DNA of 64,000 bases, taken from positions 558,001 through 622,000 of the forward strand of contig VUYT01000006.1 of assembly GCA_008802785.1 (NCBI GenBank). The letters run 5' to 3'. Positions 202 to 42,661 of the stretch are shown here, piece by piece. The position numbers were made by a program, and so were the translations under genes. Position 1 is the stretch's first letter. Each line of letters starts with the position of its first letter. The notes beneath the pieces are model-generated. The model saw nothing but the letters and a program-made list of their open reading frames with translations. It searched no databases and was not told the DNA's origin. The stretch comes from Symmetrospora coprosmae. Lineage: Eukaryota; Basidiomycota; Cystobasidiomycetes; Symmetrosporaceae.

Positions 202-1663
202 TCAATCGCTCTTGAACCTGAAACCGCGCACGACATTGGCCTCATTCTCGCCCTTGCTCAGCAGCAGCTCTACCGCCCACAATGAGAGTGTAATTGCGAT
301 ATTGAGCCACGACCAGAACTGGTGCGCTCCTGCAAAGTTGATGAGGAGCAGGTGCGTGTATACCGACACGAGGATGCTGCAACGCGCCACCCATCAGCCT
401 TCGTAAAGCCAGATATGAGATAGAACACGCACAATCGGCTATAGCACACAATCAGCGTCATACCGCGCGGCCCGGCGCCCCGCTCGTCACTCAGCGCCGT
501 CTCGTACTCGTCGAAGCCCGTCTGGGAGCGCTTGAGCGCGACGAGGACTTGGCCGGCTGCGTACAGGATGGCTGTGTTGCGCTGGCCGGTCAGAAGATGA
601 GTGAATTTCGCAGCAAGAGGAAGAGACTACGCACCTATCCGGTACGCGAGCCCGACGATCACCGGCAGAGGCAGCGCGCCCCAGGCTGCGATGAGGAAGT
701 CCAGACTCGCGCCAAAGATATGGCTAAAGAATGAGATGATGGTCGAGATGCTGTGGGAATTCAAGATGGTCAGTCGTACCATACGAGTTTCTCGGCGTCT
801 GCACTTTTCAGCCCACCTCTGGATGATCTGGGGCGGGCTGCTCTGGCTGAGACTACCCAGGTAGACGATCGGATTCGGCCCTTCTGACAGGTAGAATATC
901 TGGAAGGCGAGGTAGGCGAGCATGAGGCTCGTCTCTACTACGTTTCCCTTCCGCAGGGCAAAGGCAATGCCCGTGAGGAAGATGACGCTCGTGAGGCTGA
1001 CGCCGATGAGGGTTGCCGAGTGCGGAGTGGCGGCTGCGAACTTGTACGAGTCGTAGAGGAAGAACGCGCTTGCCACGTAGGTCGCTGCCGACGAAATGAG
1101 GAATATGAACTGGTAGCTCTCTGACCGCTCCTCGATGAGATACTTCGAGACCTGGCCGAGGGCCTGAATGACGAGGAGCGTCGACACGCCTTCGAGCAAG
1201 GTGAAGAGCGGGGTGAGCGCCTTGAGGATGGTCTCCCACGCGCCTGGAACCGACGTGAGGAGGTAGCCGTACTTCTGGGCTGAGGTTGGCGGGGCGTGGT
1301 ACAGGTTGAGCGAGACGAGGAGGAGGGCGGGGACGGCGAGCACCTGGATGGGCGAGAGGAGGCGGCTGAGGCGATGGAGCCGGGTCGAGCGCAGCAGGAG
1401 GTCGAGTGTGCTCTGCAGGAAGTAGTACCCGGCCAGGGCGGCAGAGAGCGAGAGGAAGCATGACTTGCCCGCGACCTGCGAGCGGGACAACAAGCGACGC
1501 ATCACGAGCCGCATCAGCCCAATGCGCGGACACCAGCGGCAGCAACAGAGATGTGACGCACCTCGAGCGACAGCGGCAGGTAGATGAGGACCTGTGTGAA
1601 CGACAGCGAAGAGGCGAACAGGCTGTATGCCTTTGCCAGGCCCCTCAGGCCGCGTCGGGCCAT
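202..1663 (-). CDS. ICE2: ICE2-family ER membrane protein
   Basis: This is a polytopic membrane protein of the fungal ICE2 family, which in yeast acts in cortical ER inheritance and ER-membrane/lipid homeostasis. I join five exons: 1663-1562, 1475-817, 750-635, 556-433 and 376-202, giving about 391 residues in frame. The start at 1663 (MARRGLRGLAKAY) leads straight into a hydrophobic segment. Several further membrane segments follow, with a family-like stretch LLEGVSTLLVIQALGQVSKY in the second exon and a Trp-rich C-terminal membrane segment (HQFWSWLNIAI) near the end. All introns have GT-AG ends and are 56-88 nt. The weakest join is the one at 634/557. Its divergent neighbour is the ChaC gene, 208 bp away, so the two promoters are shared or abutting. 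Confidence 0.85.
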
Positions 1664-1871
1664 CTGCGGCGAGGCGAGGCGAGGAGCGTTTCGGGTGAGG
1701 TCGTCAACAGCACGTCGTCGTCGTCATCGTGGCCGTCATGGCGTCGACCTGTATGCAATTTGTATGCTGGATTGGCAGGAAGCAGCGAGCGGAAGACGTT
1801 GGTGGCGGAACAGAGGAGGATGCTCGTGCTTCTGGACGCGGTGACGGCCTCTCTTCATTGTGCAAACCACC
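1664..1871. promoter_or_regulatory. Divergent promoter between ICE2 and ChaC genes
   Basis: These 208 bp separate the two start codons and must carry both core promoters. I see no clear TATA box. The element content is inferred only from position. Confidence 0.4.
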
Positions 1872-2868
1872 ATGAGCGATAGCAAAGAGTACTGCATATT
1901 CGGGTGAGCTCAGTGTCAGGATGCCTTCACCGGGCTCGCTGGGCTCACCGCCGAGCTGACCCGACGCGCTGCGACCGGGCGGTCGTCCCTCTCCCGGCAG
2001 ATACGGCTGTGCGTGCGCGCCATCACCCAATTCTTGCTGAGTCCCAGTCAACCTGACGTCCTGATCACACTTCTCCGCTTCTCCTTCTCCAACAGCCCTC
2101 ATCTGGAAGCCGCCTCCGCACGCCATTGAGCGCATCCCGGGCTTCATTAAGGGCTTTTCAAGGCGATTTGCTCGTGAGCGGCCAGTCCTTCCCCTCCCTG
2201 CAAGCTCACTGCTCCACATAACCATATCTCACCTGCTCTTCGTTCTCAGAGAGCTCGCATGACCACCGCGGCACACCAGAAGCGCCCGGACGCGTCGTCA
2301 CCCTCGTCCGAGCGCAGGACTGGCACGCCCTCCCACACGCCGACACACTGGCCGACGGAGACAACGTCTGGGGCGTCGCATACCGGATAGACCCTGCACA
2401 CGCAGAAGAAGTGCGCGCGTACCTTGATCACCGGGAGAAAGACGGGTACAGCATACAGCAGGTCGACGTGTGCAATATACGCGACGGGCAAGAAGTGGTC
2501 GTGGCGGAAAAGGTGAGGGCTTGGAGTGTCTGCATTCGGAGTAAGTGGGAGCTGACATGGTACAATGTCTCAGGCCACGGTGTATGTCGGCCTGCGTGAG
2601 AACCCTTCGTTCATCGGGCCGGAGCCATTAGGCGAGCTTGCGGCAGTCATCGCCCGCAGCGAAGGGCGTAAGTCCGGATCTACCAGCCACCGTGCTGAAC
2701 AGCTCAAGCTGACTCGCCACGATGCGGCTCATCTGTGCAGCCTCAGGCAAGAACGCAGACTATCTCTTCGAGCTGCATCGCGCCGTCAAGCACCTCGACC
2801 CAGACTCGCAAGATGTGTACCTAGACGAGCTCGTCAAGGCGGTGCAGCAACGCTTGCATCAAGAATGA
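1872..2868 (+). CDS. ChaC-type gamma-glutamylcyclotransferase (glutathione-specific)
   Basis: Members of this family cleave glutathione to 5-oxoproline and Cys-Gly in the cytosol. I join exons 1872-1903, 2001-2008, 2096-2173, 2250-2512, 2574-2667 and 2741-2868, giving 200 residues, the usual family length. The substrate loop FGYGSLIW near residue 9-16 appears only if an 8-nt micro-exon (2001-2008) is included. Next come the RRF box, the QSSHDHRGTPEAPGRVVTL block, VWGVAYRI, and YLDHREKDGY. The Glu of REK matches the catalytic Glu of human CHAC2. All catalytic landmarks are present, so the enzyme should be active. The gene is head-to-head with ICE2. A close relative is yeast Gcg1. Confidence 0.93.
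2001..2008 (+). other. 8-nt micro-exon of the ChaC gene
   Basis: The eight bases ATACGGCT are preceded by CGGCAG and followed by GTGCGTGCG. Joined to the flanking exons they restore the codons for the G-Y-G-S loop; skipping them loses the Tyr-Gly and shifts the frame. Confidence 0.85.
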
Positions 2869-2920
2869 GCGACAGATACACCTTCAGGACGAGGCCGCGT
2901 ATGCAGCGACGGATATTCGT

Positions 2921-3125
2921 TGCTAATCGCTGCGATGCATCAGCTCCAACTCGGTTGGCCAGGGTTGCTCGCCCGTCACAGACAGACGCAGCTGGTGGCG
3001 GGAGACCCGCACAGGAGCCGAAGCAGCTGCTCTGTGCCAGACGAGCCAACGGCAGTAGCGCACAAAGACCACAAAGGCGGTTGCGGCGGTACCGTGCGAA
3101 ATCTCGGATGCTCCGAGCAGGCCAG
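2921..3125 (+). promoter_or_regulatory. Duplicated 5' block, copy 1 (upstream of paralogue A)
   Basis: About 200 bp here are clearly similar, with substitutions and small indels, to 4534-4745. Shared landmarks include GACAGACGCAGCT and GCCGAAGCAGCTGCTC. Each copy ends a short distance before the start codon of genes A and B. It is an ancient duplicated promoter or 5' leader. No TATA box was found. Confidence 0.7.
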
Positions 3126-3201
3126 CTCTCCCAGGCTAGCCTCTCCTTGGCTCTACTTCTGTTGCTTGCAATACCTGACATCGACAGCATCCTACCAAAG
3201 T

Positions 3202-4084
3202 ATGGTCCACAACCGTCGAGGCGTTCAACCTACTCTAGACAATCAGCATCGTGCGCAGGGACGGTACTCTGACGAACAGGAACGGAACCACGCGTTACGG
3301 CGTTTGGAGCACATCCGTCAGGAAGAAGTGGAGCGTTCTCGTCGCGGGCAGCAGGCAGCACAAGGACGCGCACCGGCGGCGCGCCATCAGTTCGTAGCAT
3401 ACAGGTCCAGTGGATTTCCGCGAACACCGCCTCCTCCTCAGTACAATCCGAGAGCTCCCTACCAACCGACAATGACTTCGCAGCCCATCCAATACGCTGG
3501 TCCCAACAACAGGGTCGGAGCTGACTCGGCCCATAGAAACGGAAGCCTCTACGAAGAGGATCAGGCACAGAAAATAGCGGCTGAGACTCGAGTGCGCATG
3601 GAGAATGTCCGATCCGAGGCTTATAAAGCAACACTGAGCAAGCTCGCCAAAGACTGGGCGAATGGAGTTGACCCGCCGGAATTACGCAGCAAGACGGCAT
3701 ACTTGTTCGAAAAGTATCACGGCCTGTTCTACCCTGGTAGCCCGTCGAACCAGCGCTCTCTGGTCAAACCTTACCAGCAGTCGGTGGAATGGTCGGGCGC
3801 CATCACCGCAATGAGCAACCTCGAGACTATCATCAAGGACAACCAATCGGACCTCGAGATCAAGGAGGCGTGGCGAGGTTTCAAACGGGAACTCCGGCAG
3901 GTGAGTCAGCAATAGTCACGATAAGTGTGGCTCATGAGCTTATCGCGTGGCATCCCGCAATGTGCAGACCTTCTCTAGAGACCGACACGTGCAGAACTGC
4001 ACAGAAGAGAAGGCGAGGCTCTTGGGCATAAGCGAAGCCTTGAAGACCACGCTCAAAGAGGCCCCCCTACGTTTGCGACGCTGA
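3202..4084 (+). CDS. Tandem-family paralogue A, unrecognised protein
   Basis: I do not recognise this family. Two exons, 3202-3900 and 3968-4084, give 271 residues. The N-terminal half is polar with a short charged helix (DEQERNHALRRLEHIRQEE), followed by a Pro/Gln-rich disordered stretch. The C-terminal region begins at SLYEEDQAQK, carries the family signature LFEKYHGLFY, and ends in the spliced tail with LLGISEALKTTL. The phase-0 intron falls immediately after LRQ, at the position used by all four paralogues. There is no signal peptide or membrane segment, so it is probably intracellular. It is the shortest of the four and has little coiled coil. The start at 3202 follows the duplicated 5' block. 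Confidence 0.7.
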
Positions 4085-4533
4085 GATCGAAGCGCTGCAG
4101 GCGCTGTGCCGACGAATACGTATCTCAGCTAAGGCTTCTCTCCTAAAATCCGGTTGAAAGTCAGGGAGGCGTCGCCGAGTCTGCTCTCGAGAGTCGCCCT
4201 AACAGATTTCTGTACTTGTAGAAGACTGATCTGCTGAACCCGCTACGCCGACGTTTGCGCGCCGGATGTCGAGCCCCTTCGAAGCTGTGTCCCGACGTTC
4301 AGCGTCGACGGACGCGACACGATCAGTGATAATCTCCGCCACCTTCAGTTGGCTGATGCAGGTCCGACAAGCATCTATCTCAGGCTTGCCCGTCGAGGCG
4401 CACTGCCATTGATATAACGATCCGACACCGACACCAGCACGCCGTAGGAAAGGAGCAGAGCGAGCCATCGGAAGGGGACAGCGCACATAGCGACGGGCAT
4501 CCATGACTCATGGCAAGATGCATCAGCTCGTTG

Positions 4534-4745
4534 GGCTAATCGCAGCGACGCATCGGCTCCAGGTCGTCTGGCCAGGGACGCTTGCCTATCGAAGACAGAC
4601 GCAGCTTGTGGCGGCAGATCCGCGTCGGGGCCGAAGCAGCTGCTCCATGCCCGACAATACAATGGCGGTCGTGCACGAACACTACAAAGGCGGTCGCGGC
4701 TGTGCCGTGTGAAAGTATCGGGTGCGCTCGGAGGGCGAGGCAGAG
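4534..4745 (+). promoter_or_regulatory. Duplicated 5' block, copy 2 (upstream of paralogue B)
   Basis: This is the second copy of the block at 2921-3125. It lies about 130 bp before the start codon of gene B. Similarity spreads over roughly 200 bp with scattered differences, so the duplication is not recent. Confidence 0.7.
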
Positions 4746-4872
4746 CGGGCAGCGGCTCCTCGGCTCGTTGCGAGCGGAGACTGCTCCTCCTGACTCCGCT
4801 CGCGCATCTCTACATCTTCCAAACAACGACATCATCGACAATCTCCATCGTCAAGTGCCAACTATTATTATC

Positions 4873-6406
4873 ATGGCAACGAATTACAACCCGCGCTTTG
4901 ACCCGAAACCCAACGAGCGCCGCCGTCAGTCATTCGCTGGCGGTCGTCCACCAATGTCGTCTTGGAACGGGCCAGCCACTGCAGCACCGCCCAGGCCAGC
5001 GTCCAGAGCAACCTCAGCAAGTTCGTCCAAGACAACTGCCTCAGCCGGAAAATCTGCTCAAGACTTGGTGGAAGAGATCAAGCGACTCAAATGCCTCATA
5101 GAGAGTGACGGCCTTCCCCTCGCGTGGGTGGAACAGAAAGTGAACCAATACGTCCAAGCGCAAGCCAAATCCCACGCGCGTATGGACGATTTTGAGAGGG
5201 CGCGATCCGACGTGGCTCTACAGATTCAAAAGGCACGAGCCGCAGTGGAATGGCACACTGCTAGGCAACTGCAGAGCACTCGTGATTACGGCGAAGCCTA
5301 TTACGTGCTCAAATCCTGGGAGAAGCAAGATGACCATCTACGGTCGCAGCAAGAAGAACTACAATTGCAAGCTGAAAGTGCACACTGCATATACCTTCCG
5401 TACCAACGGATGAAAGACCGGCACACAATGCTCGTCAAGCTGGAAGGGCAGCTGAAACGCGCTCAACAAGAGGAGAGCAAGCAAGCACAGGAGAAGGGCA
5501 AGGGCAAGAGCCCGAGCGCGGGCGAACAAAGGCGGTGGGCTGGGGGCTATCCCATAGTCCATGCGCCAATGCCACCAGGTTGGTCACCGAAGCCTTCTGT
5601 CGCTGGTAGCAGAACTCCAAGCCCAAGCACGGTTCGGCCTCCATCGCGATCTGGCGCACAGAGCGCTCATGCAAGCGCTATCCAAGCGCCTCCGCGCACG
5701 GCTCATTCCCCCTCCCCGGCCCCGCCTGTCAGACGGCAGACGGACCCAGCGGAACAAAGGCGAAAGCCTCCTCAGCAACCGCGACCTCGTCGTGCTTCTA
5801 CGTCAACGGCCGATGGCATGACACGCAACTTTGCAAGCGTGAATCTTTCCAAGGGACCCTCGGGAGACGAGCAGCCCCGCAAGAGCAGTCCTGGAGGTTC
5901 TGCGCGAGGACCAAAAACCAATCACTACGGCAGTCTCTATGACGCGGACATCAAACGAGTGACCGCAGATACAAAGCTGGCACTCAACGGGTGGGAGGAA
6001 AAGACCATCGATTACCTGATAAACTACCTCTTCAAGCACTACTACAGCGTCTTTCATCAGGCGGGCCCCGATGCTTGGAAGCGGGCCCGAATTGATTTTA
6101 ACAACAACTATGTGCCGAGTAAGGAACTACGCCGGGCTCAAGTACAGCAGCTCCTCAATGGTTTGCAGAGCGTGAGTCTGAGACCAATCCGGCGCAGTAT
6201 GCTTCTTCAACGGCCCGCTGACCACCGCATGCCCATTCTGGGCCGCATAATGCCAGATCTTCACCATCTCTACCATCTCACCCGAACTCGCCGCACAGAC
6301 GAAGGCAGGTCCCACTGAGATCGGGACCAGCATTGCTTTGCAAGAAGTGCTTACGAAGGCGCAGACCCGCTGGTGCACGCCGAAAGGTTCCGCAAAAAAG
6401 AAGTAG
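4873..6406 (+). CDS. Tandem-family paralogue B, coiled-coil protein
   Basis: Unrecognised family. Exons 4873-6171 and 6257-6406 give 482 residues. The order is: a short disordered N terminus; a long charged helical, probably coiled-coil, region at about residues 60-215; a Ser/Pro/Arg-rich disordered linker; and a C-terminal domain with SLYDADIKRVTADT and the signature LFKHYYSVFH. The spliced tail IFTISTISPEL...EIGTSIALQEVL aligns with those of the other paralogues. The frame stays open past the donor into the intron (to 6318), but the spliced ending is preferred because it matches C. The last residues are Lys-rich (AKKK). An upstream in-frame extension exists, but the ATG at 4873 fits the position of the starts in the other copies. 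Confidence 0.72.
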
Positions 6407-6620
6407 CGAGGAAGTGATCGGCTCCGCGGTCGCGTGTCGAGTGCCTGTACACCGGTATAGCTTACATTACCGAGTTATTACGAACACGAACCACGCACAG
6501 CATGGTCACCAACCGTCGCCGCGATGGTCGCTGGAGGTCGGGATGAGCGATGCGATCCAAGCCATTTCGAGACAGTACCGCTAGTGCTTGTACCTTGCCA
6601 TCGAATGGGATGTATTGCCT
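6407..6620. other. Spacer between paralogues B and C
   Basis: I see no gene here. The spacer ends where the second type of duplicated promoter block begins. Confidence 0.4.
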
Positions 6621-6980
6621 GCGTATCAGGCAAGTGCACATACTCGACTCCGTTCCTCGCCCAGTATCAGGCAGCTGACACGCCATCCTCAAATCCCTGA
6701 CGACTCCTCCCTTTCGTCGCGCTCAGGCAAACGGTCCGATAGCGCGATGCAGATCACACCAGCTCCAGGCAAGGACAGGTGCCGCATCCACTGCACGCTC
6801 GAGCCAACTCACACGCAATCACGTCATCTCTGGCTTGACTCGTTCTAGACCGCCGCTCAGCACAAGCGCTGTGCATCTATAGGTGGCCCTGCCGCAACGG
6901 TAGAAATGCCGGACAAGGGCAACACGTGGGAGTATCCAGCTCTGTTCAAGGTGGTTCCGGGGATTTGGGGTATAAAACCG
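6621..6980 (+). promoter_or_regulatory. Duplicated TATA-containing promoter, copy 1 (paralogue C)
   Basis: About 360 bp are strongly similar to 8411-8779. The two copies share an identical core CGGTAGAAATGCCGGACAAG (about 6898-6917) and end at a TATAAAA box (6971-6977), 92 bp before the ATG of gene C. The conservation of a block that codes for nothing, placed at the same spot before two paralogues, marks it as a promoter duplicated with its gene. Confidence 0.8.
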
Positions 6981-7062
6981 GCCTGTCAGGGTCCCCTGCC
7001 TCTCTTGCTTTGGCTGCAAGCGCAGCTCAAGCCGGAAACGACTGCACTGCCGCAAAGCAACC

Positions 7063-8310
7063 ATGTCACCCAACCGATCTGCTTCATCGTCCGGCCGCTC
7101 TGTCTCCTTGAACTCCTCGTCGCCCGAATCCCGGTCGGCACGACCATCTAAACGACCTGCTTCATCGTCTTCCGTCCGCTCTGTCTCTCCGAGCTCCATG
7201 GAGTCTGGCTTCCGGTCGGAACGATCCCCCAGCCCGTTGAGACCCATGAGCCCTTCGGAATTACATTACGACATCAAGGCTATCAAGGTAGATCTAGTGG
7301 ATGATGAAGCCGCTCTGAACACCGCCATATCGGCCCTCGCGAGGTACAGCGCAGCCGTCCGGACAGCTGAGCTCTCGCTCTTGGCAGAGCGGGCAGCTAT
7401 GCGCGGATTCCACCAGGCTCGTTCTGCTGCTGAACAAGGACTCTCACGTCAAGGTCAGGGATGCGGTAAAACCGGCAGAGCCACACCCAGCTACGAGGAC
7501 GCCCAAAGGAGACTAGATGCAGCAAACCGCGACATTCTTGCCTCAAAGCAAAAGCAGGTTCAGCTCATGGAGGCTCTACGCCGCAAGAGCAAACGCCGTC
7601 GCTTAGCTCAAAGCGACGTTCAGAGCCGCGAGTTACGCAAACGCGCTGACCTGAAGCTTCTCCAAGACCTGCAAAGCACCCTTAAGTATCAAGCTGATCA
7701 GACATCCCGACGTGCAAGAGCTCAGCCCGAAGGTCAGACGCGCCATGCAAAGGAAAGGTCCGAGTCAACGTCCTCGACCGAATCTTCTCGTTCACGGCAG
7801 AGCCGGCAATCGCTCTCGTACACGGATGCAGTGGAGAAGGCACGGATCAGGGCGCAAATGCGTATGAGATCTTGGACTGGCAAAACGCTCCCGGCTCTCA
7901 GCGATGCGCTCTTCGATGCGTATTACGGCCTCTTTTACATGAACTCTGGCTCTCTCGCAAGCACCCTAAAAGGCTGGGGCGGCCCGGACGGCTTCAGATC
8001 CCCGTGGGATGAGGTCACAGGCAGCCTGGACGTTTTCTACAAAATGAAGGGCGATTGGCGGGAAATGCAAGCTAAGAGGCGCGAAATCGTCAACAAGCTG
8101 CAGAAAGTAGGTCTGCAAAGATGAGTAGTCCCTAAGCCTTCGGCAGCCCTGCTGACGAGCTTGCCCGTGCCATGCTTCTCTCAACAGATCTTCACGACGC
8201 GCCTAGATCTAGAGCGTATCGCTTCGCAAGAGCAAGCAGAGGAGGTCGGTACAAGCCAGGCTATAAGGGACTTTCTGAATCAATATGTGATGCCTCGAAG
8301 GATCCGCTAG
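7063..8310 (+). CDS. Tandem-family paralogue C, coiled-coil protein
   Basis: Unrecognised family. Exons 7063-8106 and 8188-8310 give 388 residues. The first 60 residues are Ser/Arg-rich with two related SxSSGRSVS-like and SSSSVRSVS-like stretches. A charged helical region with coiled-coil character spans about residues 65-215, followed by a Ser-rich linker (ESTSSTESSRS). The C-terminal domain carries LFDAYYGLFY. The reading frame ends soon after the donor at 8107 if unspliced; splicing adds a 40-residue tail whose IFTT...EVGTSQAIRDFL matches paralogue B. The promoter is a duplicated TATA block. No targeting signal is visible. Confidence 0.74.
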
Positions 8311-8337
8311 GAAAAGACGTTAGTGTCGGTCCGTAAC

Positions 8338-8388
8338 TAAATGAGATGCTTCCTTAGATGAAATGACCTCTTAAATGAGATGATTCCT
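8338..8388. repeat. 17-bp tandem repeat, 3 units
   Basis: Three imperfect units of the type TAGATGAGATGACTCCT run head to tail, starting 28 bp after the stop of gene C. The same unit recurs five times downstream of gene D (10416-10500). Confidence 0.85.
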
Positions 8389-8410
8389 TATAAGCAGCAC
8401 TACTTTGCTT

Positions 8411-8779
8411 GCGAACCAGGTATGTGCACATACTCGACTCCGTTCCTCGCCCAGTATCAAGCAGCTGATGCGCCATCCTCTGGTCCCCCTGACGGCTCCT
8501 CCCTTTCGTTGCGCTCAGGCAAAGGGTCCGATAGCGCGATGCAGCTCACACTAGCTCCAGGCTAGGGACAGCTGCCGCATCATCTGCACACTCCAGCCAA
8601 CTCACACGCGATCACGTCACCTCTGGATTGACTCGGGTCCAGATCGCCTCTAGAGCAGCACAAACGCTGTGCTGCCATGAGCCGCACTGCCGCAACGGTA
8701 GAAATGCCGGACAAGGGCGAGACGTGGGAATGACCAACTCTGCTCAAGTTGAGTCGGGGGATCTGGGCTATAAAAAGGC
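8411..8779 (+). promoter_or_regulatory. Duplicated TATA-containing promoter, copy 2 (paralogue D)
   Basis: This is the second copy of the 6621-6980 block, with the same core motif (about 8696-8715) and a TATAAAAA box at 8769-8776. The ATG of gene D is 169 bp after the TATA box. In between lies a pyrimidine-rich leader with CTCAC and CCTCA-type short repeats not present before gene C. Confidence 0.8.
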
Positions 8780-8937
8780 GACTCGGCGCCAGATTGTCCC
8801 TGCTTTCGTTCATCCTCATCCATCCTCACACTCACCCATATATACTCACACTCAAACACACGTTCATATCCTCATCCTGATCTTGATCCTCGACCTCACC
8901 CTCACCCCCACCCTTATCCTCTGCCTCATCCTCCAGG

Positions 8938-10247
8938 ATGTCCAGCTCTCGAGCATTGGCCCGGCGGCAGGACGGACAGCTCGAGAGAGTTCGCTCGAAG
9001 TCGCCGCAATCGTCGTACACCGCCTCTCAAGCTACGTATGCTTCGAGGGGCCGCCGCGCGAACCTGGACTATTCGTATTATGACAGTGCGGGTGGATCCT
9101 CCGGCGAGGAGACATCGATCTCTGAGCATGACGAGAATGTCCGCGACGCCAGAGCCGAGGTAGCTGCCACGAAAGCCCGGTGGGAACGCAAGAAAGTAGA
9201 GCTCAGGAATGCAGATCAGGCCGTAACCAAGCTAAAGAGCAGATTGAGCAACCCTCGTCAGGCAGAGTATCACTCCCAAGCCTACAGCGCCGCTCTGGGC
9301 ACACGGGAAACGGCTTCTGAGGCCGTGAAGGATCTCAAGCGGGACTTAGAGTATGCCGAAGCTCACCTGCGACAAGCGGAAGCTGAGAGGCAGAGGGCAT
9401 CCGCAGCTCCACCGGCCCGGTCTCCGTCACCACCAGAGCGGCGAGCTTCCCGAGACTATTCGCCTTCGGCGCAACAGGAGCGTATTCGATATGCGTCCTC
9501 TCGTAGACTGTACGGAGCAGGAGGAAGGAGCACGCGGCAGTCACCGCCGCAAAGCTCGTATGAGGGAGCACGAAGCAGGACGTCCGAAGAACGACAAGCC
9601 CCTCTGCAGCTTCCGTACCGTCAACCCTCTCTGACGCAGCCTTCCCTCTACGCCCAGTCCGACCATGGGAGCATGCGGGCCCCTTCTTCGCGTTCGTATG
9701 CTGGCAGAGACGCAGCAGCCAGTGCAGGTGGATACGGCTCAGACCGGTCGACAACTCCGACCCAAGGCGGGGTTTCTGGACGCTCGAAGGGCAAGGCACC
9801 TATCCGACGAAACTCTGCAACCACTCAGGATACACTGGAAGACACCTCGACTCGAGCCTACTATGTCTCCTGGGGCGCAATTCATGTCTATTCGGAATCG
9901 CGGCTCGCAGACGTTGCTGGGGCGGTTTTCAAGAAGTACTACGAGGACTTCTATGGATCCTCGCAGTCATATAAAAAATCACGACAATGGAGGAGACTCA
10001 GCGCACTACTTGACTCGTACCAATACGCCGGAAAATACGACAAAGACGAGCCCCGGACCAATGTTATCGATAGCCTGCGAAAGGCAAGTCCGGACATCGC
10101 AGTTGCGCTCGGAGAGGGTAGCTGACTCGCCCAACCGCCGTTACCATTCAGACTTTTGCTGCATCCGAAGACTACACGACGTCTGGAGAGGCTACCAGAT
10201 ACGGCATTGCGTGCGCGATCAGGCGCCTGCTGGATTCTATCGAGTGA
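8938..10247 (+). CDS. Tandem-family paralogue D, coiled-coil protein with GC-AG intron
   Basis: Unrecognised family. Exons 8938-10083 and 10152-10247 give 413 residues. A basic Ser-rich N terminus is followed by a strongly charged helical region (about residues 60-155, with RAEVAATKARWERKKVEL and LKRDLEYAEAHLRQAEAER). Then comes a Ser/Pro/Gln/Tyr-rich disordered region, and a C-terminal domain with VFKKYYEDFY. Read unspliced, the frame ends at 10125. A phase-0 intron with a GCAAGT donor (10084) and CATTCAG acceptor gives instead the tail TFAASEDY...YGIACAIRRLL, which aligns with the tails of A-C at the same intron position. The intron is therefore accepted although its donor is GC. Confidence 0.74.
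10084..10151 (+). other. GC-AG intron in paralogue D
   Basis: The donor reads AAG|GCAAGT and the acceptor CATTCAG. Position and phase equal the GT-AG introns at 3901, 6172 and 8107 in the paralogues. GC-AG introns are a known minor class of U2 introns. Confidence 0.65.
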
Positions 10248-11429
10248 GGGAGGGGACCCTGGAGGGAAACCGCCCATAAGCAGTCTTGGCTGTCGCCTTC
10301 GGTTGCCTCAAGAGCGATTGCGATTCAGCGGCGATTGTCGATCCTTACGTTCACGTTTGAGGACGGGAATGTGATGGCTCGAAGGGTCAGCCAGGACATA
10401 ATAGACTCGGTTCAATAGATGAGATGCTTCCTTAGATGAGATTACTTCTTAGACGAGATGACTGCTTAGATGAGATGACTCCTTAGATGAGATGGCCTGC
10501 AATTTCTGCCTCTGTTCCGTCCAGGCAGTAGCAGCCGACCCGAGCTTGGTCCCACATAAGCGGCGACACGACCAGAACGAGCAGGCGCCTTGTGCCATCG
10601 CCGAGTTGACATATTGAGGTAGCCACAGCGAGACCAACGCGAGGATTCGAATAGACGCGTGTGAGAGCCGACAGCATCTTGTGGCATCTGTGTGCGCGTA
10701 TCCGGCGGGCCTGCGCCCTTTGCTTGGTGGAGAAGCACGAGACGGTGCCGAGCATCAGTGCAGTCCGAATCAACATCGAGGTACAGCTGCTGGTGCAAAT
10801 GGCGAGAGGGCGGAACTAGATGTCAAGGGGCGTAAGTGAGCGCGACGGGCCTTCCGGGGCTGATGGTAGGAAGGGGAGCTGTATACGATGACGGCGGATT
10901 CAGCGGGACCAAGCGATCGTGCCGCGCTCTCGAGGTGGTTTCATGAGAATGTCGGAGTAAGCAGTCACTGCCGTGGCCGCTTCATCCATGCTTGAGCAGG
11001 ATCCCTTGAAGTGGCGGCTGCATCTGGTAGAAAATCATCGACGACGAGACTGCGAGCGATCCCTTGAAGCACGCCATGTCAGTGCAGTATTATCGTTTAA
11101 TCCGCTGATATCATCGATGTCTGCGTTGGTTGGCGAGAGAACAAAGGTGACCATCATCTTGCCCTCGCCTGCCTGCCCTTGCCCGCGCCGAGGAGGATGT
11201 TCCTCTCTTTCTCCCTCCATCCGTTGAAAGCAAGCACAGATAGGCGCTGCTGTACGCTGCACAGGATAGGATAGCACAGCTCAGCGCGCGCACTCGGCGA
11301 CGCCAAGCTTGGCTTTCCATCTTCCGACACGGGCCAGGGAGCTGTTAGCCGCCAGCGAGCAAGCGGGCGAGCATCTCATCTGCGACCGGGAAGCGCCTAT
11401 CTCAGTAGGAGCAAGCACACAGGACAGAG
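10248..11429. other. Gene-poor interval between paralogue D and SPT5
   Basis: Apart from the 17-bp repeat array at 10416-10500, I cannot support any gene here. A minus-strand open frame at about 10483-10776 has hydrophobic patches but no start context, splice logic or family match that I can recognise. Confidence 0.4.
10416..10500. repeat. 17-bp tandem repeat, 5 units
   Basis: Five imperfect units of TAGATGAGATGACTCCT run with exact 17-bp spacing. They are the same family as the three-unit array behind gene C and lie 168 bp after the stop of gene D. Confidence 0.88.
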
Positions 11430-14400
11430 ATGTCCACAGCTGCAGACTACGTCGAGGATCTGGGCGAGATGCCCATGGACGCGCCGCTGCAGGGTGCTGG
11501 CATTGGCGAAGGGCCCACCTCGGACGCGGCCGACAATGGCAGAGTCCCCGAAGGGATGCAGGTCAGGCATGAGGACGACGAGGAGGGAGGCGAAGGACAG
11601 AATGGGAACAGCAACGACGAGCACGACGACAGGGACGAGGATAGAGCCAGCAGGAACAACGCCAACAACAGCAAGGACGCAGGGACGGCTCGCGGCGGCA
11701 GGGACGGAGCAGGCGATGAGGATGAGGATGAGGATGAGGACGAGGAAGACGAGGAAGGGGAAGAAGAGGATGAAGACGACGAGGAGGATGAGGACGACGA
11801 AGAGGACGACGCAGAAGGCGGCCAGGAGCGAGCAAGGCCACGGAAGAAGGTGGGTCTGGTTGCGCAGCTCCACCCGGCAGCCACGCGGGCCCGCAAAAGC
11901 ACCTGGAGTGTCTCACTGACGCATGCCGCTCTGATGGCATACACTTCGTGTTCCCTCGACATGCTACTGCGCTCTTCATTGTGGGCCTCCTCGCTCTATC
12001 TGGTCTTACCACTTCGTCCGCTTTCCAGAAGCGCCGCCTCCGCACCAACAAGTACGTCGACCTCGAAGTAGAAGTCGACGAGTCTGAGGACGAAGAGGAT
12101 GAGGAAGCTGGAGAAGCCGGCTTCGAAGTTGCAGGTGGGTCATCCGCACTAGCTCCTGTTCTCACTGCTTCCCGCAACCTGCTGACCGCCCCGCATAGAC
12201 GACTATCTCGAGCGTCCCGGCCGGCGCAACGTCATGATTGCCGACTCGTTCGACGGCGACGAGGAGGACCTCGCCGACAACGACCGCGACCACCGACAGC
12301 TCGAGCGCCGTGCGCGCGACAAGGAGGAAGCAGAGGCACTCAGGCAGGCCGCAGAGTACAAGGAGCGGCACAGGCAGCGCAGGCAGGGGATGGGCATTGC
12401 GAGCATGCAGGACTTTGCGCCGCGGAGCGTGCTCATGCCGGGCGTGAACGATCCGAGCATCTGGTGCATCAAGTGCAAGGTGCGTCTCTCTCGCCTCTGC
12501 CCTTGAACACCGGAATCTTGCACAGCAGCTGACAATGTCGGCTCATGACACAGATTGGACGCGAACGCGAGCTCATCATGTCCATCTCGCGCAAAGCCAT
12601 CGTTCAGAACCTGAGCATTACGTCCGCCTTCCAGCGCGACTCCTTCCACGGTTACCTGTACCTCGAAGCGCGGTCCGAGGCGCACGTCCGCGAAGCCGTG
12701 CACGGCCTGATTGGCGTGTACGTGAGTAGCACTCCGATGCTCGTCCCCATTGAGGAGATGCCCGACCTGCTCAAGAGCAGGAAGAAGGAGACGCCCATTG
12801 CGATCGGCGGCTGGGTCCGCATCAAGCGCGGCACGTACAAAGGCGACCTTGCACAGGTCGACGATGTGCCGGAGACGACCGACTATGTCACGCTCAAGCT
12901 CGTTCCGAGAATCGACCTGCATCCGAAGGAGGAGAAGGATGCGGGGGTCAGCTAGCGTTTTCCTGTCGCGTCGCTTCTCGCTGTCCCTTACTGACTGCGA
13001 CACTTCCCGCCTGTGCAGGATGCTGGCAACAAGAAGCGCCGAAGGCAGGATCTCTCCCTGTTCCGCGCGCCGCCCAAGTTCTTCAATGCCGAAGAGGTCC
13101 GAGGCGCCTATGCGGGCAAGGCGAAAGTGCACAAGGACGCCGAAGGGTGGCACTTTGCAGGCGAGCTGTACGCAAATGGATACCTCATCAAGGACTTCAA
13201 GATGCACATGGTCGAGCGCGAGAACGTCAACCCGACCATCGACGAGATTACACGCTTTGTAGGAGAGACGGCCGCTGCGTCCTCGGCGGCGGGCAGCGCT
13301 GGCGCCGACGGTGTAGGGCTCGGTGACAACCGGCTCGACCTGGGCCTGATCGCCGACGCGGCCAAAGCGCAGACGGTGCTGCAGCCGGGAGACAGCGTCG
13401 AAATCTTTGAGGGGTCGCAGAAGGGCATTATCGGCATCATCGAGAGCATTGCCAACAACGTGCTCATCCTGTCGCCGAGCGATCCCGTCGATCTCGTCGG
13501 CACGAGCATCGAGGTCCTCGCGCACCAGGTCCGCAAGCGCTTCAAGGCGGGCGACCACGTCAAAGTCCTCCGGGGTAAGAACAAGAACGAGTCTGGTCTG
13601 GTTCTCAAGATCAACAAGGACCTCGTCACGTTCCTGAGCGACCTCAGCGTGCAGGAAGTCACCGTATTCAGCAAGGACATCCGAGAAGCTGCAGAAGTCG
13701 GAACGGGCATTTCAGCGAATGCGGCATATGATCTACATGATCTCATCCAGCTAGAGTGAGTCCGTCCTTGTAGGGTCATATACTACATCATGCTCGATGA
13801 GCTGACCTTCTCTTGTTACTCGCTCACAGCACGGAGACAGTCGGTGTCATCTACAAGGTTGAACCGGGAGCATTCCGCGTTATGGATCAAAACGCCAATC
13901 CACGCGTGCTCAAACCTTCGCAAATGGGCACAAAGATCGACACCCGCCGTGCCGTTGCTACCGACGCTGAGGGCGGCGAGCTTCGCCCGGGAGATCTCGT
14001 CAAGGAGATGCAGCGCGGCGCCATGTCGTCTGCGCAGGAGCCGCGCCAGGGCCGAGTGCTCCACGTCTTCCGCAACGCCGTTGCCTTCCTGCACAACCGG
14101 GACATTGCGGAGAACGGAGGTGTCTTTGTTGCTCGCCCGAAACAGCTTGGATCGGTGGCTCCCAAAACGGGCATGGGCATGGACACGACTCGGATGAACC
14201 CGGAGCGCTCGGCGGGGTTGGGCGCCTTCTCGCCTGCGGGACAGAGCGGCTTGCTCGGCGCCATGGGTCAGCAGCAGGCTCCGATGGCGCGTGTGCGTGA
14301 GGTGGCCGTCGGCGCGCATGTCACGATCGTCAAGGGGCCCCATAAGGGCCTCAAGGGCATCTGCAAAGACATGAACGGCCCACTGGCGCGCATCGAGCTG

Positions 14401-18135: not shown

Positions 18136-19623
18136 ATGTCAAAAGCCAGTCAGCAGCGGAATGAGAAGACGCTCGCGGAACTCCGGACCACAGTCGCCGG
18201 CAACAACGAATGCGCGGACTGCGGAACTTCACGCCCAGGCTGGGCGAGCTGGAACCTGGGCATCTTCCTATGCGTGCGCTGCGCTCAGCTGCACCGCTCG
18301 CTCGGGACGGACGTGTCAAAGGTCAAGAGCCTGACGCTCGACTCTTGGGAGCGGCACCAGGTCGAATCGATGCGCGTGAACGGCAATACTCGCAGCAATG
18401 CTCGCTTCGTCCCCGACCCACGAGCGAACCCTCCACCTCTTGACCTGGATCCATCCGACCGCAACTCGCAGATGCATCGGTATCTGGTGCAGAAGTACCG
18501 GAACCAGGCGTTTGTCAAGCGAGAGCGCTGCGCGGAGGCAAAGGTACAGGACAAGAGGGAGAAACAGACGGCCCGAGGCGAGCAGGAACCGGTGTCTGGG
18601 AGCTCTGACCGAGCTAGGCAGCGTGAATCGCCTTTGCCTACGCCGACAGTCTCGGTGTCCACGGCGCCGCGCGAAGGCCTGGGCAGGAGCTCTTCGCCGT
18701 CTGGGATGCTGGCCGGCGCTTCCAGCATCTCACGATCAGCAACCGCGCCATTGCCAGATGCTGCGCGGCAAGCTCACCGAGATCGCCTTGAGTCGGCTAG
18801 GAAGTCTACGGTGCTGCCCACTTCGCCGCATACAGGGGTAGGAGGATATAACCCGTTCAATCGGCAAATGACGGCTTCAGCGCAAATACCCTCATCTTCA
18901 AGCAGTACGCAGTACCAAACAGCGACTCCGTCTATCGCTGCTGCACCTGGTCATCTGGCTCCTGCACGGGCTTTCTCAGCTTCGCCTTCGGCTTTTTCCG
19001 CCACGCCTTACGGAGCGCCCCTGGCCAGTGGAAGCCTCTCGACATCATTGTCACCGTACGCAATTCCCCAATCTTCAGCTAGCGCCTATCAACCGTCGAA
19101 AGCGGTCACACCAGCTCGGACTGGTGGCGTTTGGGACGACCTTGCCGGTCTGTCCCTTTCCTCAGCATCTGCTCAACCAGCTCACCCGGCATACGGACAA
19201 TCTCCAGCATTCACGCCTTTGACTCCTTCATACATGCCCGCGCCGCCCTCTTTGCCATTCGCAAGCCAAAGCACCCAGACGAACCCCTTTCTTCGAGCGA
19301 TGTCTCCTCAACAGCAGCAACCCCAACCGCAGCGGTCTTCTTTCCCGTCCTCAGCTCCGAGTCAACAGCAACAATTCAGCCCGCCTTTGCAAGCATTTGC
19401 ACAACAGCCGCAGTATCAAGCCTTTGGTCAGCCTGCAATTGCAGCGGGACTTCCGGCGGCAGGACAAGGAGCGTACACACCGGCGCAGGAGTTCGCTTCC
19501 CGGAACCCATTCCTCGCCGCGCAAGGATTGTCGCCATGCTCGACTGCACTGGGAGGCGGGTCCTTCCAGTCGGCGCAGCCAGCCTTTCAGCAACATGCCC
19601 CTCATAGCTTTGGCAGCTTCTGA
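18136..19623 (+). CDS. ArfGAP-domain protein with NPF motifs
   Basis: This protein should stimulate GTP hydrolysis on Arf-family GTPases during vesicle traffic. It is a single exon of 495 residues. The ArfGAP zinc finger starts near residue 28: ECADC, 16 residues, then CVRCAQLHRSLG, a C-x2-C-x16-C-x2-C pattern, followed by the conserved Arg finger region in HRSLGTDVSKVKSLTLDSW. The remainder is a Ser/Pro/Gln/Ala-rich disordered tail with three NPF tripeptides (YNPFN, TNPFL, RNPFL), the known ligand of EH domains, which suggests an endocytic link. The start at 18136 is chosen because it precedes the domain at the distance seen in relatives. It could be the counterpart of yeast Age2/Gts1-like proteins. 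Confidence 0.9.
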   Translation: MSKASQQRNEKTLAELRTTVAGNNECADCGTSRPGWASWNLGIFLCVRCAQLHRSLGTDVSKVKSLTLDSWERHQVESMRVNGNTRSNARFVPDPRANPPPLDLDPSDRNSQMHRYLVQKYRNQAFVKRERCAEAKVQDKREKQTARGEQEPVSGSSDRARQRESPLPTPTVSVSTAPREGLGRSSSPSGMLAGASSISRSATAPLPDAARQAHRDRLESARKSTVLPTSPHTGVGGYNPFNRQMTASAQIPSSSSSTQYQTATPSIAAAPGHLAPARAFSASPSAFSATPYGAPLASGSLSTSLSPYAIPQSSASAYQPSKAVTPARTGGVWDDLAGLSLSSASAQPAHPAYGQSPAFTPLTPSYMPAPPSLPFASQSTQTNPFLRAMSPQQQQPQPQRSSFPSSAPSQQQQFSPPLQAFAQQPQYQAFGQPAIAAGLPAAGQGAYTPAQEFASRNPFLAAQGLSPCSTALGGGSFQSAQPAFQQHAPHSFGSF

Positions 19624-39640: not shown

Positions 39641-40194
39641 ACAGGTAATCTGTTGTGACACGCCCCTTCCGCTCACCATCCATCAAGTTCTCGAACTCGA
39701 GCGTATGCCCTTGCATCAGTGCATCTGTTGTTTTGACCATAGTGCCGCTTCTTCCTGTACTTAGACGCTTCCGCGCCCTCCATCACGACACGTAGACCAG
39801 GCGACCTGCCCTATGTCATTGTATCCGATGCGGCAAGCCCCTCGGCACTTTTCCCGCGATGTACGGCAATGTTCTGGACGCGTTGCCAGATCGAGAGCAC
39901 CACTGGCTACAGCTTCCGATACAGGAGCGGACACGCTTCCGTAGGCTAGTCGGACGCAAAACACGCTGATGCTCGGCCCCCTCACTTTCAGGGTGAATGA
40001 ATAAATTACCAAGAAGCTCCTGTAGCTGATGGAATCCAGAAGAAGCTCCTGTAATGGCATCCAGAACGTTGCCCTGAACCTATTTAGCCGTGCCCGAACG
40101 CGCGGTACGGATTTGCAACCGGGCTCTGGTGCGACTCCAGCGCCTTTATTCGTCCAGGCCAGTCAAGGATGTCAGCTGCATTCCTAGCTTTGCA
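39641..40194. other. Spacer within the BTB-like cluster
   Basis: No gene is seen. A short direct repeat around 40010-40068 has two copies of AAGAAGCTCCTGTA followed by ATGG-type and CATCCAG-type sequence. Confidence 0.45.
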
Positions 40195-40866
40195 TCAAGA
40201 AGTGGCCCTCACTAAGCGATAGACATCCTCTCCGCTCAAGCGAGCCATGTGCGTGGCCGGCCACGAAGAGGGCTTCCACTTGCGAGTGTAGCGCGCGAGC
40301 TCTGCCACAAGTTTGGAAGATCCGCCTTCCTGGCAGGCCAGAACGTAAAGTGTTAGAGCGTCTCGACAGGGACCTCCGTCTTCATAAGCAGCCTGTATGG
40401 AGCGACGTGTTATCTATCTCATGCAGAAAACACAGTCGCGGATCCATTGACCGGCTCACATGCGTCGTACATGCTCTTGTAGCAGAGCCTGCGCTAAACC
40501 CATCCCGTACTTCATGCTGGCTTCCCAGAGAGGTACGAATTGTGCCCACGACAGAGCGCAGAGGTCGTGGAGACGGGACAGATTGGGATAGCAGTACGGC
40601 AGCAGGGAGTCCAGCACCTCGGACGAGTCCGGAAGCTGGACAACGGGTAGTCCACAATAGTGCGGATCGGCGTCTGCATCCGAGCATCCCAAATCGAGCA
40701 TGTCGGAGAAGACTGGTGATGCCGCGCCTAGGTGACGCTTGTGGAGCTTGTAGATGGTTGGGGTCTCGCCAGACGAGAGAAAGACAATGTCCGCATCGTC
40801 TGCTTCGAAGTCGAAGCTGACTTCGGCGACCGCGAGGTCCTTGTCAATCTGGGTAGGGGGGCTCAT
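40195..40866 (-). CDS. BTB/POZ-like protein, copy 1
   Basis: A short protein with a BTB-like fold, a class that usually mediates dimerisation or Cullin-3 adaptor binding. Exon 1 runs from 40866 with MSPPTQIDKDL, then DADIVFLSSGETPTIYKLHK, SPVFSDMLDLG and GLPVVQLPDSSEVLDSLLPYCY. The donor GTACGA after LLQEH and an acceptor near 40397 lead to AAYEDGGPCRDALTLYVLAC and MARLSGEDVYRLV. The stop is placed at 40195, but a further intron after YRL is possible. Length is about 190-210 residues. It is paralogous to copy 2 and to the decayed copy; no other domain is attached. Function beyond the fold is unknown. Confidence 0.75.
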
Positions 40867-41545
40867 GCTGCAGCCTGAAGCGGAGATGGATGTTGGCCGC
40901 GGAGGTGGGAAAAAAGGGGAGGAAAGGCAACATCGTGAGCTCAGGGAGGAAGCTGTAAGGAAGAGATAATCTCGTACTGTCCGGACTGTCCAAGACTCGC
41001 CGCTGTCGTGTCTTCGGGGCACTTTTGGGAAGAAGAGTACCGAACCGCTCATCGTCGCCGCCGGCGTTGGAGATCAAAATTTCCTCTTGTTTGGCCGGCA
41101 GGAGGAGGCGATCCGTTACTCCGCTCGAGCGATGGTTGCGCGGTCGCGGACCGCAGTGGTCTCCTGCCGGCGGACCAGTTCTATGAACTTGCCTACATTT
41201 GCAAGCTTGACCACTTCGTGCGCAGGTGATCCATCGCCGACTTGTCCGCGCTCGGACCGGCCCGCTCGGTTGTCATTGAGCGATCAAGCATCAGATCGCA
41301 TATGTGCACAGAGGCACATTGTAGCAGTGTCTGCGATGCCTGCGGTTGAACGTATGTCCTGAGCTTGGTCGTAGGACGAGGAGCGGGGATGATCGTGCGC
41401 TAAAAAGACAATTAACGGGTACCAACATTGGCAGCTGCCTCTCATCCTGCGCTAGCACACGTATTGATGGGTACTCGCGTCCCCTTTGCCGCATAACGCG
41501 CGCATTAAACGCTTCCTTCCGGTATGGATCTATGCGTCGCGGACC
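40867..41545. other. Spacer between BTB-like copies
   Basis: I can support no gene here. A plus-strand stretch ending LPADQFYELAYICKLDHFVRR is faintly reminiscent of a BTB-protein helix but has no context. Confidence 0.35.
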
Positions 41546-42336
41546 CTATTGGCTTCGTATACCTCCAACGTCTGTGCCGGAAAGCGCAGTCAGGGTCTGA
41601 CCCAGTAGCCACGCCTGCTGCGTGCTGATTGGCGTAACGCGGCCACTCACAAGTCGAAAGAGATCTTCCCCGCTCAGGGCCATAGCCATTGCTCCGGGCC
41701 AATCCCGCGGATCATAGCCTCCGATCAGCTTCGACATCTTCTCGATGAGACTGTGCCTTTGGGCTCGACAGGCGATGGTATACAGCTTGAAGGCCTGCTC
41801 GATGGTGAAGCTTGCAGACATGCACACCTTGGCGGCTCTGTAAGGACCAAGGCCATTTCGGATGAGACGAATTCGCTGGCTTCAAAGCGATACTCTCTGC
41901 CAACCTACATGTCACTAGAGATCTGTGACTTGAGCAGTGCCTGAGCCAACGCGATGTCGTATCTGATGCATGCTTCCCAGACATCAATGGTCAGATCCCA
42001 GTTCATCTGGGCGGCATCAGGAAAGGAGTCGACATTGTTGGAAGAGTAGTCCAGAAAGTACAACAGCGTGCGAGTCGTCTCTGCCAGCTGAACCACCGGC
42101 AGGCCACAGAAGGGCTCGTCCGGAGGGATCGTATCGCTCGAGGTAGCGCCCAGGTCGAGCATGTCTCGGAAAACAGTGAAAACGCCAGCGAGCTGATTTT
42201 TGTAGACCTTGAAGAGCTGCGGGCTGTCCCCGCTCGACAGAAGAACGAGGTCGGCGTCGAAAGCGTCGTAGAACGAGTTCTGCTTTGCAGCGGCAATGTT
42301 CTTGGCGAGTTGAGATGGCTGGGCCATTGAAGTCAT
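41546..42336 (-). CDS. BTB/POZ-like protein, copy 2
   Basis: A paralogue of copy 1. Exon 1 starts at 42336 (MTSMAQPSQLAKN; a second ATG follows nine bases later) and includes FDADLVLLSSGDSPQLFKVY, VFRDMLDLGATSSD, GLPVVQLAETTRTLLYFLDY and IRYDIALAQALLKSQ. An intron with donor GTAGGT near 41910 is removed, and exon 2 continues IAAKVCMSASFTIEQAFKLY, GGYDPRDWPGAMAMALSGED and LFRLV, ending at 41546. It is about 235 residues and intact in both exons. The helical C-terminal half aligns with copy 1 and the decayed copy, so the three arose by local duplication. Expression and partners are unknown. Confidence 0.78.
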
Positions 42337-42661
42337 GTTCTGTCCAATGAGAAGATGCCGGGGTCTGAGGCTGTCATCCCGCTCTCTGCGGTCACAAGAG
42401 GCCTACTACAGCACCCGGGTGTATTCGTGTTGTTCCTGCATAGTTGTCCGAGATTGCAGCGTGGCGCCGAGCCAAGGGCTGACCAGGGGAGAAGGCTTCC
42501 ATCGGACCTGCCGCTCTGAACCAGGGCGGAGTTCCGCGTTTGTTTGGTCCGCTTGAGCCTTCTTATATCCTTGAGCAACGCCAGTGGCACCGTACTAGCA
42601 GCTGATTGGGCAAAGCAGGCGATGCTGCAGGAGGCCCGCTATGGCATACCACGAATTGAAT
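42337..42661. other. Intergenic spacer
   Basis: It holds the presumed promoter of BTB-like copy 2 and the 3' side of the hydrolase/SnoaL gene; nothing else was recognised. Confidence 0.35.

Follow-up and report, generated by a model that had tools for sequence, protein, structure and literature searches.

Do four neighbouring genes whose proteins resemble each other so little form a single family, and are the genes and the DNA in front of them of the same age? These questions are raised by an array in the window, the whole 64-kb stretch of DNA analysed here, which corresponds to bases 558001-622000 of contig C65 (819,728 bases) in a genome of 20,053,935 bases, 77 contigs and GC 0.60. A sequence-only reading had described four same-strand genes, A to D, within 7 kb, and models rebuilt from the DNA placed all four where it had put them (Table 1). 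That reading overlooked near-identical blocks upstream of the genes, which are new here.

Table 1. Positions of the array genes, their upstream blocks and annotated neighbours in the window
Feature	Position	Strand	Remarks
ICE2 (Pfam)	630-1703	-	left of array
ChaC (Pfam)	2222-2596		left of array
Upstream block of A	2917-3111	+	pairs with B block; 198 columns
Gene A	exons 3202-3900 and 3968-4084	+	271 aa; short form, long helical part absent; ENA copy P0002
Upstream block of B	4528-4725	+	pairs with A block
Gene B	exons 4873-6171 and 6257-6406	+	482 aa; ENA copy P0004
Upstream block of C	6615-6977	+	ends at TATA box 6971-6977; pairs with D block
Gene C	exons 7063-8106 and 8188-8310	+	388 aa; ENA copy P0001
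Upstream block of D	8405-8775	+	ends at TATA box 8769-8775; pairs with C block
Gene D	exons 8938-10083 and 10152-10247	+	413 aa; GC-AG intron
SPT5 KOW domains (Pfam)	12995-13756		right of array
ArfGAP (Pfam)	18136-19620		right of array

Kinship of the four genes

Each gene is interrupted by one intron of 67-85 bases, and the proposal that the last intron falls at a common place was borne out: it is in phase 0 in 4/4 genes and lies at the same aligned position, directly 5' of [IT]F. Short introns are typical of genes in the window. The donor is GT in A, B and C and GC in D (intron 10084-10151); a CTGAC branch-like site is present in the introns of B, C and D, and the A intron has no site matching CT[AG]A[CT]. 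Against a codon-usage model derived from 82 open frames in the 200 kb of flanks, the modelled frame came top of six in all four genes (0.026-0.051 bits per codon), the remaining frames all being negative. ENA sequences carry A, B and C with their reading frames intact. The frames of A and B also stay open well 5' of the modelled ATG (2869-3201 and 4540-4872), and ENA protein P0002 begins in the open stretch 5' of the modelled ATG of A. At the N terminus of C there is an internal Ser-rich repeat (7072-7143 and 7150-7224, 73% identical).

All four proteins carry the two motifs noted earlier, an aromatic signature and a tail motif. The domain signature reads F-x2-Y-[YH]-x2-F-[YH], followed 3' of the intron by G-x3-A-[LI]-x3-L; position 9, previously given as [FV], is F throughout, so the original pattern was too wide. 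The exact signature has 4 matches in the whole genome (20.05 Mb), all inside A to D. A backward control pattern likewise yields 4 matches (3 forward, 1 reverse), so that the count does not rise above the control; the placing, with 4/4 in array genes, does.

Direct comparison of the proteins, with these four alone as the blastp database, linked B to C at 3.5e-8, A to C and C to D at 1e-3 each and B to D at 0.44, and the A-B (3e-5) and A-D (0.014) alignments fall outside the C-terminal domain. Leave-one-out profiles were run against 264 kb containing 5,815 open frames of at least 25 aa. Every held-out exon-1 piece ranked first among the non-training frames, with whole-sequence E-values of 1.7e-6 (C), 0.017 (A), 0.043 (B) and 0.19 (D) and best single-stretch values of 0.018, 0.19, 0.19 and 0.4, respectively. 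For exon 2, C ranked first (0.049), A and B second (0.73 and 0.76), and D fell outside the best 8 rows. No further member of the family was found by profile search at E<=1 within 100 kb on either side of the window. Since A, B and D reach only weak E-values, and exon 2 by itself still weaker ones, relatedness rests on the ranks together with the motifs, the place and phase of the intron and the tandem setting. Taken together, these sequence features argue that A to D form a genuine family of tandem paralogs sharing the C-terminal domain and the intron; D, judged by its leave-one-out value, is its weakest member.

Known families and predicted fold

Does the shared domain belong to a fold that is already described? 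The earlier view that the array matches no named family held: nothing was above the cut-off in Pfam, and neither the PDB sequence search nor, among the rows shown, the fold search gave a match. Against Pfam, the full proteins returned merely sub-threshold coil matches (D to Filament at E 0.0065 with a score of 16.6 bits, the cut-off being 40), and neither the four domains, searched at E 10, nor the four proteins returned a LEDGF integrase-binding or TFIIS N-terminal-like row. A PDB profile search with the whole proteins reached a best E of 1.6, which is no match. The model of the domain (exon-1 part, pLDDT 69) is all-helical, the signature helix being the second of four and lying early in the domain; among the fold-library rows shown for this model, no natural family is prominent and the LEDGF/TFIIS type is not listed. 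The model of C consists of a helical hairpin (66 + 77 residues), then a Ser/Arg-rich linker and then a small helical domain, a fold that is predicted, with low to middling confidence, for C alone. The two models have pLDDT values of 69 and 57, and one of low confidence covers 287 residues. The common layout ascribed to the four proteins stands with respect to Ser/Pro-rich stretches, which occur in B, C and D and are shorter in A; the long helical part is missing from A.

It is possible, if somewhat unlikely, that the C-terminal domain is a known helical interaction fold, such as the TFIIS N-terminal or LEDGF integrase-binding type, that has diverged past sequence detection, and that the genes are fast-evolving members of that group. 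The LEDGF/PSIP1 integrase-binding domain, which is TFIIS N-terminal-like, is a helical protein-binding module. When the PDB was searched with the domain profile, the top row was a fusion of this domain, 5yi9, making it the nearest PDB sequence, and the alignment covers the signature helix of the A-D domain, whose model is helical throughout. However, the E-value of 0.22 is not significant, and no fold match appears among the rows shown for the exon-1 model.

The hydropathy scan found no hydrophobic N terminus of the kind that would mark a secreted effector, and no membrane-like stretch, in A to D. The first 30 residues are strongly hydrophilic in all four (mean hydropathy -1.15 to -2.00) and the highest 19-residue hydropathy is 0.42-0.89, in line with the intracellular location suggested earlier. 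In the protein database the family profile matched 2 proteins among the 7,993 scored from a larger set of candidates, and a region search with B matched 1 among 56; the matches to the family are confined to ENA sequences nearly identical to A, B or C. For the neighbouring ArfGAP, the top named match among the 120 of 521 listed is 59% identical across 26% of the query, so there is no annotated close relative there with which to check lineage restriction.

Paired upstream blocks and the age of the genes

Identity between the blocks upstream of A and B is 78% across 198 alignment columns, or 79.5% across the 195 ungapped ones (blastn 1.85e-39); for the blocks upstream of C and D it is 84% across 371 columns, or 86% across the 363 ungapped ones (blastn 4.95e-110). 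Both pairs stop 5' of the coding parts, and a genome search that skipped simple repeats placed each at exactly two sites at E<=1 and found no further copy. The A/B and C/D blocks have no mutual blastn match, and no TATA[AT]A[AT] lies within 250 bases upstream of A and B. With the whole 64-kb window as blastn query at E 1e-4, self-matches are limited to the A/B block, that of C/D and a short repeat-bearing stretch 3' of C and D; a 12-kb query adds the internal repeat of C. The coding stretches of the array genes gave no blastn match between genes at 1e-4 within the window. A 17-base minisatellite (TAGATGAGATGACTCCT) is located 3' of C (8338-8390) and of D (10416-10494), and the 76% match of the C and D 3' flanks is mostly due to it. 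Other identities for the blocks were considered and set aside. As coding sequence they fail on mismatches that are unbiased modulo 3 (14/16/10 for A/B, 20/16/15 for C/D) and on a frame broken by gaps of 1, 2 and 4 bases; as RNA genes, on fold z-scores between -0.81 and 0.58; and as RIP-mutated repeats, on the absence of RIP-like signs in A/B or C/D.

How old are the blocks in comparison with the genes that they precede? Where aligned residues are identical, their codons coincide in 51 of 158 cases over all pairs against 55.2 expected from codon usage, and in 10 of 30 against 10.7 expected for C and D; in no pair does the excess over expectation go beyond 1.0, the counts being taken from 25%-identity alignments and the expected values from the codon usage of the same four genes. 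Synonymous sites between the paralogs thus look saturated. This favours the first half of the proposal that low identity makes the array either old or fast-evolving, and not adaptive speed. At 84% and 78% identity, the blocks are more alike than the synonymous sites of the genes, as would be expected after promoter homogenization by gene conversion. Had the coding parts been diverging for no longer than the blocks, most synonymous codons would be expected to agree, which is not seen. The blocks thus seem to be of more recent origin than the genes, which suggests conversion or other local copying, with full constraint as the rival. On this sequence evidence, the proteins probably diverged first and the promoters were homogenized later, gene conversion being the simplest route.

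Instead of conversion, strong selection acting over the full length of the blocks could have kept them alike. The mismatches between C and D are scattered along a block whose end is the TATA box, and none of the 89 read-through codons upstream of A differs from the ENA copy. Yet near-complete constraint would be needed to keep 371 and 198 bases despite synonymous sites that look saturated, and the A/B and C/D blocks are unlike each other. Moreover, the low allelic change may merely reflect a stretch that varies little between isolates, as none of the 48 read-through codons in the B intron stretch differs either. We therefore consider selection on the entire blocks unlikely.

The comparison with the ENA copies also bears on the diversifying change that had been proposed for the family. 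In exon 1, 2/233 residues differ in A, 3/433 in B and 7/287 in C, which is below the rate in the neighbouring ArfGAP (21/495); for the array as a whole 12/953 stand against 21/495 (Fisher p 6e-4), a contrast between copies that possibly do not all come from one isolate. The read-through non-coding codons, unchanged upstream of A and in the B intron stretch, suggest that the array stretch simply varies little. The comparison therefore demonstrates neither purifying nor diversifying selection. We did not adopt diversifying selection, given the few allelic differences and the synonymous sites of the paralogs, which look saturated and so indicate age.

Proposed mechanism and genomic setting

What are the implications of the probable promoter copying for the function of the array? 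Our preferred reading is that A to D are intracellular orphans under joint regulation, built from a helical region and a small helical domain at the C terminus, and that they are probably scaffolds. Their position, and the TATA boxes of C and D, suggest that the upstream blocks act as promoters. Gene conversion between neighbours would have homogenized these blocks, and the homogenized promoters would cause both genes of a pair to be expressed together. The helical part may oligomerize, and partner binding may fall to the flexible linkers together with the helical domain at the C terminus, so that the four paralogs would be subunits or variants of one scaffold-like assembly; of these steps, the oligomeric scaffold has the least support. 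As a whole, the explanation, which combines an old tandem orphan family, converted promoters, paired switching and scaffold-like assembly, has in our estimation slightly less than an even chance of being correct. A bolder version, which we regard as a long shot, is that promoters are copied by recombination between neighbours while the proteins drift, possibly in a self-recognition or assembly set for which timing outweighs sequence.

Concerted evolution of a tandem paralog family is reported for the CEACAM genes (PMC7042247). In families of this kind neighbouring paralogs carry stretches too alike for their age, which are ascribed to gene conversion. In A to D the likeness is confined to the upstream blocks, to the exclusion of the coding parts. 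If our explanation is true, the array is a compact natural case of control sequence and product evolving apart in gene copies, and it provides a fungal domain as yet undescribed, recognizable by a clear signature that can be sought in new genomes. Should the blocks turn out to be constrained and no more, the array would be an orphan tandem family of the ordinary kind.

Tandem intracellular orphan genes with signs of conversion could also represent a selfish or self-recognition (killer/antidote-like) cluster kept up by conversion, and fungal drive genes such as Podospora Spok have similar traits. We judge this very improbable, as Pfam and hydropathy reveal no toxin-like, membrane or nuclease feature in A to D and allelic differences are few. 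Functionless open frames or decaying copies, which low identity and the weak E-values of D might suggest, are just as doubtful in view of the best-of-six coding frame and the aligned intron in 4/4 genes and, for A, B and C, the reading frames kept open in ENA sequences.

No Rfam family was matched and no tRNA gene was found in the 64-kb window. A tandem gene pair is located on the minus strand at 40180-40870 and 41560-42340. One piece lacks a Pfam match and the other resembles BTB at an E of 0.0079, below the cut-off; the proteins of this BTB-like pair are 39% identical over 137 residues, with no common DNA block within the window. The named rows among the 120 of 521 ArfGAP matches listed are from fungi only. 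In an ArfGAP tree of 15 rows, from which P0082 was left out, the window sequence groups with its ENA copy and P0006; their branch is long and falls somewhere on the ascomycete side of a split that has support.
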